From NCBI RefSeq assembly GCF_003063295.1, contig NZ_MUXF01000001.1, positions 310,001-374,000 of the forward strand: 64,000 nucleotides of DNA. The letters run 5' to 3'. The stretch comes from Arcobacter lacus (GTDB lineage: Bacteria; Campylobacterota; Campylobacteria; Campylobacterales; Arcobacteraceae). The position numbers were made by a program, and so were the translations under genes. This document shows, piece after piece, positions 50,283 to 60,938 of this stretch. The notes under the pieces were generated by a model, which had not been told where the DNA came from, did not search any database, and was given only the letters and a program-made list of their open reading frames with translations. The first letter of the stretch is position 1. Each line of letters begins with the position of its first letter.

Positions 50283-51260
50283 TTACCATTCAAACTGAAA
50301 AGTTGTATGAACTATTTTAAATTTTTCTTTTAAATTGTGATTTATTTTATGTAAAATCTCTTCATAATCATCTAAATATTTTTTATCAATTTTCACATGG
50401 GCTGTCATATTATACATATCTTGAGTGATTTCCCAGATGTGTACATCATGTATTTCTAAAACTTTTTCATTTTTTTCAATATACTCTTGAACTTCTTTTA
50501 CATCAATAGGAGAACTTTCAAGTAAAGTATTTGTTGAATTTTTCAAAATATCAATTGCCCATTTTGCAATCACAAAAGCTACAATAACAGCTAAAATAAT
50601 ATCTATAAAATACCATGAAGTAAAATAGATAACTATATAACCTATAATAATTGCAACTGAAGATAAAGCATCTGTTAGCATATGAATAAATGCTGATTTT
50701 AAATTTATATTATCTTTATCTCCTTGCATTAAAATAACACCAGTAATAATATTTACAATAAGACCGATAATTGCAACTATCATTGCTGTTTTTATATCAA
50801 TAACTTGTGGATTTAAAAATCTTTCAATAGCTTCATAAATAATCCAAATAATTGATAATACGATAGTAATTCCATTTATAAATGCAGCTAATACCTCAGC
50901 TCTATAATAACCAAATGTTTTAGAAATCGGTGCTGTTTTACTTGCAATTATTATTGCGAATAGTGAAATAATCAAAGCAAAAGAGTGAGTAAACATATGA
51001 ATTGCATCAGAAACTAAAGCTAACGAATTTGATAAAAATCCATAAAAAAACTCTAAAAACATAGTTATTAAAGTGATACTTAAAGCCCATTTTAAAACTT
51101 TTTTATCAGTTCCTCTATGATCGTGAGTATGTCCTGCTACTCCATGATCATGTCCGCAACTATGCTCATGAGAATGATTGTGTTCCCCATGATGATTATG
51201 CTCTGTTTCTTTATCTAAAAAAGGTTTATGTTCATTTAATCCAAATCCACAATTTGCCAT
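50283..51260 (-). CDS. dmeF: Cation diffusion facilitator, DmeF-like (Co/Ni efflux)
   Basis: The 325-residue inner-membrane antiporter has a His-rich cytoplasmic N-terminus (residues 11-48, more than a dozen His), six membrane helices, and a C-terminal metal-sensing domain (VHIWEITQDMYNMTAHVKID). The transport site reads DAIHMFTH in helix 2 (Asp85, His88, His92) and HMLTD in helix 5 (His193, Asp197). His in place of the second acidic residue in helix 2 is what I recall of DmeF-type Co/Ni exporters rather than zinc exporters. It lies 11 bp after a CsoR/RcnR-family regulator gene, like dmeRF. Zinc export cannot be excluded. Confidence 0.8.
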   Translation of the reverse strand: MANCGFGLNEHKPFLDKETEHNHHGEHNHSHEHSCGHDHGVAGHTHDHRGTDKKVLKWALSITLITMFLEFFYGFLSNSLALVSDAIHMFTHSFALIISLFAIIIASKTAPISKTFGYYRAEVLAAFINGITIVLSIIWIIYEAIERFLNPQVIDIKTAMIVAIIGLIVNIITGVILMQGDKDNINLKSAFIHMLTDALSSVAIIIGYIVIYFTSWYFIDIILAVIVAFVIAKWAIDILKNSTNTLLESSPIDVKEVQEYIEKNEKVLEIHDVHIWEITQDMYNMTAHVKIDKKYLDDYEEILHKINHNLKEKFKIVHTTFQFEW

Positions 51261-51271
51261 TTTATATCCTT

Positions 51272-51571
51272 TTATTTTCCATATACTTTTATAATTTCAA
51301 GTAAATTATCAATTTGTGCTTCTGCATCTGCTTGAGTTCCATTTTTAATATTTTCTATCATATGCCCTTTTGCAAAATGTTCAACATATGAAGTAATCAT
51401 TCCTGTAACAGCTCCTTTTATTGCTGTTAATTGTCTAATAGTTTCATAAGGATCCTCTTCTAATTTAAATTTTTCATCATCAAATTTATTTTTTAAAGAG
51501 TGTATTTGTCCATGAATTCTGCTTATTCTATTTTGTAATTTTTTTCTTTCTACATCACAACAATATGCCAC
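51272..51571 (-). CDS. CsoR/RcnR-family metal-responsive repressor (DmeR-like) with unusual metal ligands
   Basis: The 99-residue all-helical DUF156 protein starts at a GTG after AAGGAA. Family pattern is clear: RISRIHGQIHSLKNKF, QLTAIKGAVTGMITSYV, KGHMIENI. The Cys that nearly all members carry in the second helix is Tyr42 here (EEDPYETIRQ), and the His/Cys after the GHxxE motif is Asn74. Instead there are Cys4 and Cys5 at the N-terminus and His65 near His70. It should repress itself and the adjacent exporter; an operator-like C-rich element lies over its promoter. Confidence 0.82.
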   Translation of the reverse strand: MAYCCDVERKKLQNRISRIHGQIHSLKNKFDDEKFKLEEDPYETIRQLTAIKGAVTGMITSYVEHFAKGHMIENIKNGTQADAEAQIDNLLEIIKVYGK

Positions 51572-51593
51572 ATTAGTTCCTTTTTTTTATTTT

Positions 51594-51617
51594 ATATACC
51601 ATAAGGGGTATAGTATA
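51594..51617 (-). promoter_or_regulatory. DmeR/RcnR-type operator over the promoter of the regulator-exporter operon
   Basis: Read on the minus strand: TATACTATACCCC followed by TTATGGTATATAA. It has a C-rich core with ATACC and GGTAT arms, similar to RcnR and DmeR operators (runs of C or G flanked by AT-rich inverted arms). TATACT can act as the -10, so binding would block transcription start. Confidence 0.55.
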
Positions 51618-51667: not shown

Positions 51668-51713
51668 TGCAACTAAGTTGCAAAATATATAATTTCATTG
51701 CAACTTAGTTGCA
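51668..51713 (+). promoter_or_regulatory. Paired palindromic operators upstream of TonB receptor 1
   Basis: TGCAACTAAGTTGCA (51668-51682) and TGCAACTTAGTTGCA (51699-51713) are perfect 7-1-7 palindromes with centres 31 bp apart. A TATAAT -10 element (51688-51693) lies between them. Two related pairs occur at 59609-59661 and 60885-60938. This is a repressor layout. Confidence 0.75.
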
Positions 51714-51739: not shown

Positions 51740-53767
51740 ATGAAATCTAATCATACTAAACTCATAAAACTATCTCCTCTTCTTATCCCTTACATTTTAT
51801 TTGCACAAACAACAGTTCTTGATGAAATAGAAATAAAAGAAAAAAAAGAGATAAAAACAAATTCTATGAATATTGATTTAGAAAAAACAGAACAAGAGCA
51901 AGCAAACTCTTTTAAAGAAATTTTTAAAAATAATTCATCAATTGAGATTGGTGGAGGAGCTATAAATGTACAAAGAATATATTTAAGAGGAATTGAAAGT
52001 TCAAATTTAGATATTTCTCTTGATGGAGCAAAACAAGGTAAAAATATGTTTCAACATCGAAGTAATGAATTAGGAATTAATACTGATTTATTAAAAGTTG
52101 TAAATATAAAAACATCACCTGATGCAACTAAAAATTCTGCTTTAGGTGGAAGTATAGAAATGACTACAAAAGATGCCCAAGATTTTGTAAAAGGAAATAA
52201 AAATTATGGAGCTATTTTTAAAACGGGATACAATACAAATGCCAATCAAAAACTTGGTAGTGCAACAGCTTATCAAGTTTTTAATGATAATATAGGAGCC
52301 TATGCAAGTATAAGTGGAGTAAATAGCGATAATTATAAAGATGGAAATAATAATGAAGAGATAGCAACAGCCTATCATGATAGAGATTATTTATTTAAAA
52401 TAAGTATGTTAAATGCAAATGATCATGATTTAAGATTAACTATCAATCATAATGAAAACAGTGGAGATACAAGATGGAGGGGAACAGAATATAGACCTTT
52501 GCCATCAGAACTTGAAAAAATTGTTTCTTCTACTACAAACTATGCTTTACAACACAACTATAATCCTAGTAATTTAATAAATTTAGATACAGATTTAAAT
52601 TTAACAGATATAAGTTTAGAAAGAGAAGATGAAAATCAAAAATATGAAAATCAGAATATTGGACTAAAAGTACAAAATCATTTTGATTTTGATATTTCTT
52701 CAACTTCTAATAGAGTATCAATAGGAGCTCAACTTCAAAAGGAAAATGGTGAAGGTCCACTTGTTCCTCATAATTTAGATAAAAATATCACTCAATATTC
52801 AGATTTAGATACATCAACAAAGTCACTATTTGTACAAAATAGAACTGAAATTGGCTCTTTAGGTATAGATTATGGTTTAAGATTTGATAAATATGATTTT
52901 GAAACTGGTTTAGGAAAAGCAAGTGATGATACATTTTCTCCAAATGTAGGAGTTGATTATTCAATAACTCCTAATTCTTTAATATACGCAAACTATGGAA
53001 AAGCAAGTAGAATGACAGGACTTATTCCTTTCACTTGGACTCTAAATACTAAAATAGGTTCGACTTATTCAAAAGATTTAGAAGCAGAAAAATCTACAAG
53101 ATATGAAACAGGATATAAATATGAAAAAAGAGATACATTTTTAGATAATGATTACATAACTTTTAATGCGAATATTTTTAAAACAACAATAGAAGATTTA
53201 ATAGTATCAAAAGACACTAATTGTGTAAATGGAATTTGTGGAAGTGGAGAAGGAGGAAGAACTTTACAAGATATCTATAATCGTTCAGATGATTTTGAAT
53301 CAAAAGGTTTTGAATTAAAAGTTTCATATAGTTACGATATTTTTTCAACAACTTTAGGATATACACAAATTGATACAAATAATATAAATAGTGATACTGG
53401 TGGTGTTGTAGATATAAATGAAGATCAAAATATAAGAAGAGTTGGTGGATATGATAGTAAAAAATTTATTTGGAATAATGGTATTGAAATCACAAAAGAT
53501 TTAGCTATGGATTATACTTTAAATGCTGTATCTGGAACTGATGTCCTAGATAGTAATAACAATGAAATAAGAAGAGCAGGATATACAACTCACGATATAA
53601 ATATGAAATATAAACTAAATTCTGATTGGACTTTATTTTTAGCAGTTAATAACTTAACAGATAAACAATATGCAAAAGCTACAACAATATCTACAAAAAA
53701 CCAAGCTGATGTTTATAGATATGAAATGGGAAGAGATTATAGATTTGCTTTAAAATATGAGTTTTAA
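51740..53767 (+). CDS. TonB-dependent outer-membrane receptor 1
   Basis: The start at 51740 (AAAGGA, MKSNHTK) gives 675 residues; the in-frame ATG at 51698 lies inside the operator and is rejected. A signal peptide (about 1-25), TonB-box-like VLDEIEI, a plug domain (RIYLRGIESSNLDISLDGAKQG, ALGGSIEMTTKDA), and a 22-strand barrel ending YRFALKYEF are visible. DGAKQGKNMFQHR resembles plug sequences of some Campylobacter receptors, but I cannot assign the ligand. CVNGICGSGEGG (near 490) is a Cys pair in an external loop. It is monocistronic. Confidence 0.88.
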   Translation: MKSNHTKLIKLSPLLIPYILFAQTTVLDEIEIKEKKEIKTNSMNIDLEKTEQEQANSFKEIFKNNSSIEIGGGAINVQRIYLRGIESSNLDISLDGAKQGKNMFQHRSNELGINTDLLKVVNIKTSPDATKNSALGGSIEMTTKDAQDFVKGNKNYGAIFKTGYNTNANQKLGSATAYQVFNDNIGAYASISGVNSDNYKDGNNNEEIATAYHDRDYLFKISMLNANDHDLRLTINHNENSGDTRWRGTEYRPLPSELEKIVSSTTNYALQHNYNPSNLINLDTDLNLTDISLEREDENQKYENQNIGLKVQNHFDFDISSTSNRVSIGAQLQKENGEGPLVPHNLDKNITQYSDLDTSTKSLFVQNRTEIGSLGIDYGLRFDKYDFETGLGKASDDTFSPNVGVDYSITPNSLIYANYGKASRMTGLIPFTWTLNTKIGSTYSKDLEAEKSTRYETGYKYEKRDTFLDNDYITFNANIFKTTIEDLIVSKDTNCVNGICGSGEGGRTLQDIYNRSDDFESKGFELKVSYSYDIFSTTLGYTQIDTNNINSDTGGVVDINEDQNIRRVGGYDSKKFIWNNGIEITKDLAMDYTLNAVSGTDVLDSNNNEIRRAGYTTHDINMKYKLNSDWTLFLAVNNLTDKQYAKATTISTKNQADVYRYEMGRDYRFALKYEF

Positions 53768-59608: not shown

Positions 59609-59661
59609 TTTAACTAAGTTGCATTTAGTAATATTTCATTCAATTTTGCAATTTAGTCGCA
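59609..59661 (+). promoter_or_regulatory. Paired palindromic operators upstream of the DUF1624 gene
   Basis: TTTAACTAAGTTGCA (59609-59623, two mismatches to the consensus) and TGCAATTTAGTCGCA (59647-59661) have centres 38 bp apart. TAATAT (59629-59634) between them is a probable -10. This is the same arrangement as upstream of receptors 1 and 3, but with weaker copies. Confidence 0.65.
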
Positions 59662-60884: not shown

Positions 60885-60938
60885 TGCGACTAAGTTGCAC
60901 TAAGTAATATTCTACTTTTATTTTGCAACTTAGTTGCT
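60885..60938 (+). promoter_or_regulatory. Paired palindromic operators upstream of TonB receptor 3
   Basis: TGCGACTAAGTTGCA (60885-60899) and TGCAACTTAGTTGCT (60924-60938) have centres 39 bp apart, with TAATAT (60905-60910) between. The first copy also contains a direct repeat AAGTTGC-GACT-AAGTTGC. Same layout as the pairs at 51668-51713 and 59609-59661. Confidence 0.7.

Follow-up and report, generated by a model that had tools for sequence, protein, structure and literature searches.

The cysteine at position X, in helix 2, has been described as absolutely conserved (PMC5146963) and as invariant (PMC7689651) in the CsoR/RcnR family of repressors. The 64,000-nucleotide stretch of Arcobacter lacus DNA analysed here (the window) contains a gene for a repressor of this family whose helix 2 has no cysteine. 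Given those descriptions, this absence, which extends to a whole clade of homologues, is the surprising point, and the question is how such a protein could still sense a metal. The answer that we find probable is that it is an autoregulated metal-efflux repressor with the CsoR/RcnR fold and a relocated cysteine site, for which Zn(II) would be the likeliest metal.

The Repressor Gene and Its Fold

The gene lies on the minus strand (51,272–51,571, the stop codon being 51,272–51,274), begins with GTG, and encodes 99 amino acids. Its assignment to the CsoR/RcnR family, made at first from the letters of the DNA, was borne out by a PF02583 match of 46.9 bits (E 3.6e-12; Pfam cut-off 22.8). The protein reaches no curated subfamily, since its NCBIfam scores are 41.7 bits for RcnR (cut-off 138) and 36.8 bits for FrmR (cut-off 133). 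An AlphaFold model, built as a monomer from a 26-row alignment (in relatives, the metal site sits between protomers), has a mean pLDDT of 90.5 and helices at residues 5–31, 41–77, and 80–98. With unrelated helical proteins among the matches disregarded, chains of the CsoR family (CsoR, InrS, FrmR) top the rankings of both Foldseek and VIA-align; the latter superposes Streptomyces lividans CsoR on the model with a Z of 10.3–10.4 and an rmsd of 1.9 over 90 aligned residues, Z values of a size that is possible for any helical bundles. For the family assignment, the sequence match is firmer evidence than these structural values. By profile, above the Pfam cut-off, and by its three-helix fold, the repressor belongs to the CsoR/RcnR (DUF156, PF02583) superfamily.

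Besides this gene, the host genome has one other PF02583 gene, which is of the CsoR type and encodes the Cys-His-Cys set (L001). A misannotated or frameshifted reading frame was ruled out, the frame being open and its start coinciding with an ATG or GTG in homologues. A plasmid-borne origin was rejected as well: all 74 plasmid records matched were below 60% identity, the best reaching 33%. A promoter-pattern scan was uninformative (17 found against 14.1 expected).

Distribution of the Repressor Clade

Among the 104 genomes of the bacterial family, 32 match the repressor, 26 of them closely (E 3.8e-28 or better). Six further matches are weak (E 7e-7 to 4e-5), and canonical RcnR-like proteins are among them, as seen in the five that were inspected (L029–L032 and L104; the sixth is in G044). 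In the phylum, 58 of 397 genomes match, 19 closely (E 1e-35 or better) and 39 weakly. A scan of 84,980 species returned 19 loci, all Campylobacterota by title (Aliarcobacter, Sulfurospirillum, Halarcobacter, Nitratifractor, and others). No member was found outside this phylum in that one scan, which used two peptide patterns that divergent members could escape; we conclude that, within the limits of a pattern-based scan, the clade is so far found only in Campylobacterota. In the literature searched, from which many subscription papers were out of reach, there was no published clade without Cys X. A genome survey of A. butzleri lists csoR and CzcD (PMC10302510), and the parts of its text available to us make no mention of a loss of this cysteine.

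The counts below refer to 36 clade rows, which comprise 34 different sequences. Rows that duplicate the window, or a protein or contig in the count, were excluded (L010, L033–L038, L041–L047, L052, L053, and L058); L036, L043, and L047 enter the counts under L057, L056, and L055, respectively, and L002 and L003 are the window itself. The canonical-type loci fetched (L029–L032, L060–L070, and L104) supplied 10 rows to a canonical alignment and 5 to the clade alignment and tree; L066, L067, L069, and L070 are repeats, and L061 and L064 fall outside the extracted set.

The Operator and the Regulon

About 22 bases upstream of the repressor start lies an operator-like inverted repeat (51,594–51,617), TATACTATACCCCTTATGGTATAT on the minus strand, which is unique in the window, where none is expected. 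The operator to which the earlier note referred is thus present here, and it recurs at 35 of the 35 testable loci (L049, without upstream sequence, was excluded). In the superfamily, a tetramer binds a pseudo-palindrome with a G/C tract and comes off it in response to the effector; the matching observation for this repressor is the conserved operator. Its consensus over 22 positions is TATACTATA-CCCC-N(1-3)-TATAGTATA, in either orientation. With at most four mismatches of 22, it was found in 37/37 upstream regions, those of the 35 clade operons and of two unlinked CDF genes, and none of 100 shuffles per region equalled the value of the region. A site that departs from ATACTATACCCC-N3-ATAGTAT at one position at most is present in 14 of the 104 family genomes, all 14 within the 26 that have the repressor and none in the other 78. 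When three mismatches to the operator pattern were allowed, many chance-like sites appeared across the 104 genomes.

The strongest reason to place operator and exporter in the regulon of the repressor is given by two genomes, G088 and G089, in which the repressor has no adjoining exporter (as seen in L041 and L045, which cover the same contigs as L021 and L023). There, the operator stands 11–12 bases ahead of a CDF gene that lies on a different contig (L101, L102).

Several single sites were observed besides. In G032, one site with two mismatches lies at the start of a gene read as a molybdopterin-type oxidoreductase. At L019 (L038:3801-4097), where the repressor has no nearby exporter, the C-tract has been lost from the site (CTTCC), and no other of the 37 is as weak. 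A site three mismatches from the operator, CTACTATATCCTTCAATAGTAT, occurs at G000:C19:268046-268067 (L078), with near-unchanged copies in G003, G010, G012, and G029. Finally, a divergent pair of a canonical DmeR (His3-Cys35-His60-His64) and a DmeF-like exporter (L104:1994-3275) has an operator, ATACTATACCCCAGTATA, close to that of the repressor, and this resemblance invites the question whether the two systems cross-talk where they coexist.

The Exporter Partners and the Metal

The repressor gene leads a unit of two genes. The second gene (50,283–51,260, minus strand) starts 11 bases downstream and encodes a CDF-family metal exporter of 325 amino acids (PF01545, E 7.8e-42; NCBIfam TIGR01297, 280.8 bits) with a His-rich N-terminus and, as read by eye, the motifs HX3H in TM2 and HX3D in TM5. 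The host genome has three CDF genes, and a histidine occupies the ligand position of TM2 in this one only (again by eye). Over the 36 rows, the partner is an HX3H CDF in 22 (including the window), an HX3D/HX3D CDF in 8 (2 of them unlinked), and a Cu/Zn permease of the SO_0444 family in 4 (L050, L051, L054, and L059, all over the NCBIfam cut-off); none was seen in 2 (L019, and L049 at a contig edge). The TM5 pattern missed 4 of the 21 HX3H locus rows (L009, L018, L025, and L056), for which HX3D is assumed. The HX3D/HX3D motif marks zinc CDFs. The view that the locus remains a unit for metal efflux stands, backed by the 36 homologues and by the conservation of both operator and exporter partners.

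As to which metal is the signal, we lean towards zinc as the first choice, because the partners comprise two CDF motif types and SO_0444 Cu/Zn permeases and because Zur-like boxes adjoin the unit in the window (see below). In Shewanella, SO_0444 is needed under ZnSO4 or CuCl2 stress (PMC3219624), and a homologue in Nitratiruptor is induced by Cd and Cu (PMC10092412). Two facts speak against zinc. Firstly, the HX3H/HX3D motif of the window CDF is that reported for DmeF, which exports Co and Ni (PMC6044271). Secondly, SO_0444 also handles copper.

Co(II) or Ni(II) would be our second choice, and a rather unlikely one. The locus would then be a DmeRF system of the same architecture, with the window CDF as DmeF and the repressor as a diverged DmeR. 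Canonical DmeR-DmeF pairs of the same bacterial family do have a similar operator, ATACTATACCCC-AGTATA; separate true pairs of this kind, however, present in other members of the family, carry the full His3-Cys35-His60-His64 set (e.g., L104), and relatives of the repressor pair with HX3D/HX3D CDFs and SO_0444 permeases. The exporter itself gives a divided answer. It had been called DmeF-like, which the TM2/TM5 motif and an NCBIfam DmeF match of 145 bits support, but this score is below both the cut-off (250) and the score for ZitB (212 bits, itself below a cut-off of 408). ZitB-like and DmeF-like exporters both fall within the Zn-CDF group (PMC1868760).

Zur-like Boxes beside the Operon

Between the efflux operon and a divergent gene for a TonB-dependent receptor (51,740–53,767, plus strand; Pfam TonB_dep_Rec and Plug), which lies outside the operon, a palindrome scan found two Zur-box-like sequences, TGCAACTAAGTTGCA (51,668–51,682) and TGCAACTTAGTTGCA (51,699–51,713), both exact TGCAACTNAGTTGCA palindromes with further copies in the genome. 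The window has six such palindromes against 0.37 expected, the others being at 59,609–59,623, 59,647–59,661, 60,885–60,899, and 60,924–60,938; in pairs, they precede two TonB-receptor genes and an acyltransferase-like gene.

Genome-wide, nine sites have at most one mismatch, and the reversed control gives none. The ones whose surroundings were read (a site on C5 excepted) are found ahead of znuA and a Fur-family gene (L111), next to zinc-type ABC genes (L112), ahead of a TonB receptor (L113), and in the interval that separates pyrC from a gene for PRA-CH/GTP-cyclohydrolase-II (L110). The last of these genes is a single reading frame (L110:536-1435, minus strand), adjoining the Zur-like box, whose N-terminus matches phosphoribosyl-AMP cyclohydrolase (HisI) and whose remainder matches GTP cyclohydrolase II (RibA). 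Exact copies of the palindrome occur in 70 of the 104 family genomes, and the control has none in all 104. From its copies and neighbours, TGCAACTNAGTTGCA is likely the Zur box of Arcobacteraceae. Such a box lies near the repressor at only 5 of 35 loci and most plausibly serves the divergent TonB receptor.

The Ligand Positions

The four ligand positions W-X-Y-Z correspond to His3, Cys35, His60, and His64 of RcnR. In the alignment that also holds the 36 clade rows, all five canonical Campylobacterota relatives have His/Cys/His/His at these positions, and C35, H60, and H64 are invariant in the 10-row canonical alignment. The window repressor has instead Cys4, Pro41, Phe66, and His70, so that only Z of the RcnR/DmeR set is retained; at X-Y-Z, where CsoR has Cys-His-Cys, it has Pro41, Phe66, and His70; and it departs from FrmR in its equivalog score, given above, as well as in lacking the cysteine at X, the mark of the superfamily. 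The incompleteness of both the CsoR and the RcnR set had been recognized in the earlier note and is now backed by 36 homologues. We file the protein as a variant working like RcnR/DmeR and not as a DmeR.

The column of the family's invariant cysteine falls within the codons for Asp40-Pro41-Tyr42 (51,446–51,454, minus strand) and holds Pro in 35/36 clade rows, Ala in one, and Cys in none, against Cys in 5/5 canonical relatives. The reported absence of the cysteine is therefore correct, but its place is taken by Pro41, and not by Tyr42, which comes one residue later. A cysteine elsewhere in helix 2 was seen in none of the clade rows examined. Position Y holds Phe in 18 rows, Tyr in 17, and Val in one. 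At W, 25 rows have Cys, 5 Gln, 4 Ser, and one each Asp and Glu. Residues present in 36/36 rows are Cys5, Glu8, Asp40, Tyr42, Glu43, and His65, together with the His at Z. Gly69 stands in the column of RcnR Glu63, where three rows have Glu.

Cys4 and Cys5 (codons at 51,557–51,562, minus strand) are the only cysteines of the window repressor. Proposed earlier as new ligands, they keep this standing as candidates for relocated thiolates, with Cys5 in 36/36 rows, but Cys4 is not invariant (25/36). His65 and His70, which belong to the stretch His65-Phe66-Ala67-Lys68-Gly69-His70 (51,362–51,379, minus strand), had been proposed alongside them. Both occur in all rows, yet His70 appears to be the old last ligand and not a new one. 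His65 may lie outside the His70 site, possibly in the second shell, since on an ideal helix the two residues point in directions that differ by about 140 degrees.

The Alignment of Helix 2

Which histidine corresponds to His64 of RcnR depends on how helix 2 is aligned. MAFFT aligns the clade with canonical members without a gap across this helix, the K-E-H-L of the early-branching clade members coincides with that of the canonical members, and in the models helix 2 starts at the X column in both cases (Pro41 in the window repressor and Cys35 in the canonical model). Moreover, the position of Asn74 is variable, with N in only 8 of 36 rows. From the coincident K-E-H-L, the matching helix starts, and this variability, we take His70 to be probably the retained last ligand and Asn74 not to be a ligand column.

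The earlier note had read Asn74 as the ligand after GHxxE, which needs a four-residue gap within helix 2. With such a gap, His70 and Asn74 would stand for the last two canonical ligands, helix 2 would be one turn longer, and His65 would be an added ligand. The modelled helix 2 is indeed longer (37 residues against 30 in the canonical model), and RcnR and the window repressor share a K-G-H string. All four observations of the preceding paragraph nevertheless count against the gap, and we regard it as improbable.

History of the Cysteine

The homologues do include another cysteine near the lost one. The X column itself has none, but the eight early-branching rows (L026–L028, L048–L051, and L059) all have a cysteine in the loop between helices 1 and 2, at residue 34 or 35, so that its number in the chain matches that of canonical Cys35; the loop has been lengthened. 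The alignment of homologues for which the earlier note had called thus bears out that note only in part. This loop cysteine is found in 0/28 crown rows. Conversely, Cys4 occurs in 0/8 early-branching and 25/28 crown rows. The three other crown members (L025, L039, and L040) have Cys5 as their single cysteine, so Cys4 cannot be essential throughout the clade.

In the tree, the 28 crown rows form a clade with 100/100 support, and the eight rows with the loop cysteine form an early-branching grade beside the canonical group. The tree is midpoint-rooted, its root falling on long branches between the clade and the distant canonical group; support for the branching order inside the grade is weak (88/72 to 96/77; a single fork has 94/95), and only the crown clade is strong. 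The simplest history would be an insertion between Cys35 and helix 2, which drove the old Cys35 out of the helix and into the loop, with Cys5 in all members; later, the crown clade would have lost the loop cysteine and gained Cys4. A bolder reading, which we hold only tentatively, is that the clade dropped the helix-2 cysteine and rebuilt its site from Cys5, Cys4, His70, and an oxygen or nitrogen donor to become a natural Zn(II) sensor, the intermediates with the loop cysteine recording the steps.

A Proposed Mechanism

In our proposal, the apo-repressor would bind the TATACTATA-CCCC-N-TATAGTATA operator and keep the repressor–exporter operon off. An excess of a divalent metal, most likely Zn(II), with Co(II) next, would then bind to the repressor. 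The cysteine sulfur would come from the N-terminus (Cys5, aided by Cys4) in place of position X in helix 2, and the site would be completed by His70 and an oxygen or nitrogen donor, either Asp40 of the neighbouring protomer (cf. Glu34 of RcnR) or His65. On binding, the N-terminus would become ordered, the DNA would be released, and the exporter would be made. The most economical proposal for the site is Cys5, Cys4, His70, and Asp40', because Cys4-Cys5 lie on the N-terminal arm while Asp40, Gly69, and His70 are found at the positions of RcnR Glu34, Glu63, and His64, respectively.

The N-terminal thiols might instead serve to sense something other than a metal, such as a persulfide, formaldehyde, or an oxidant. 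The cysteine pair could form a disulfide or an adduct, and the family includes the non-metal sensors CstR and FrmR (PMC5016687). However, a metal exporter gene is linked to 34 of the 36 rows, no partner detoxifying sulfur or formaldehyde was found in the gene contexts read, and three members retain a single cysteine, which together make such a sensor very unlikely. Least likely of all is that sensing was lost, leaving a repressor that acts constitutively or a copy in decay: the invariant cysteine is gone, and L019 is a lone copy with a weakened operator and no partner, but Cys5, His65, and His70 are kept in 36/36 rows across genera, and the operator and gene order are conserved.

Comparison with Known Systems

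The metal-sensing repressor proposed here most resembles the Co/Ni-responsive DmeR and RcnR (His-Cys-His-His). It shares with them the fold, an operator in which a C-tract lies between AT-rich inverted repeats, and, in the case of DmeR, an operon with a CDF gene; with RcnR, it also shares the last histidine column (His64, here His70) and an acidic residue before X (Glu34, here Asp40). It differs from both in having Pro41 at X, Phe or Tyr and not His at Y (residue 66), and Cys and not His at W, as well as in a five-residue insertion between helices 1 and 2 and a longer helix 2. Its identity to the five canonical Campylobacterota sequences is only 23–31%.

The likeness to CsoR, a Cu(I) repressor, lies in the fold (with the Z of 10.3–10.4 to the S. 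lividans protein, to be read as above); none of the CsoR residues at X, Y, and Z is retained, and the host has its separate CsoR-type gene. InrS, which responds to Ni through His-Cys-His-Cys, is also alike in fold (Z 10.1), whereas the repressor lacks the Cys at X and the His at Y and has His instead of Cys at Z. Its best sequence matches in the PDB are FrmR and the engineered FrmR E64H, which is responsive to Zn and Co and demonstrates that zinc sensing is within reach of the fold (PMC4528141). FrmR, however, uses Cys35 at X, and its zinc response was engineered.

If the clade works without the helix-2 cysteine, the allosteric switch of the family can be driven from the N-terminus, and the W-X-Y-Z rule, by which function is predicted, would be broken. 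The canonical proteins, those with the loop cysteine, those with the N-terminal pair, and those with a single N-terminal cysteine would be natural intermediates in the movement of a metal site. A natural Zn(II) sensor would join a family known for sensing Cu, Ni/Co, persulfide, and formaldehyde, and a probable regulator of zinc efflux would be added for Arcobacter-like bacteria. The repressor may thus show how metal-sensing sites get rebuilt in evolution.
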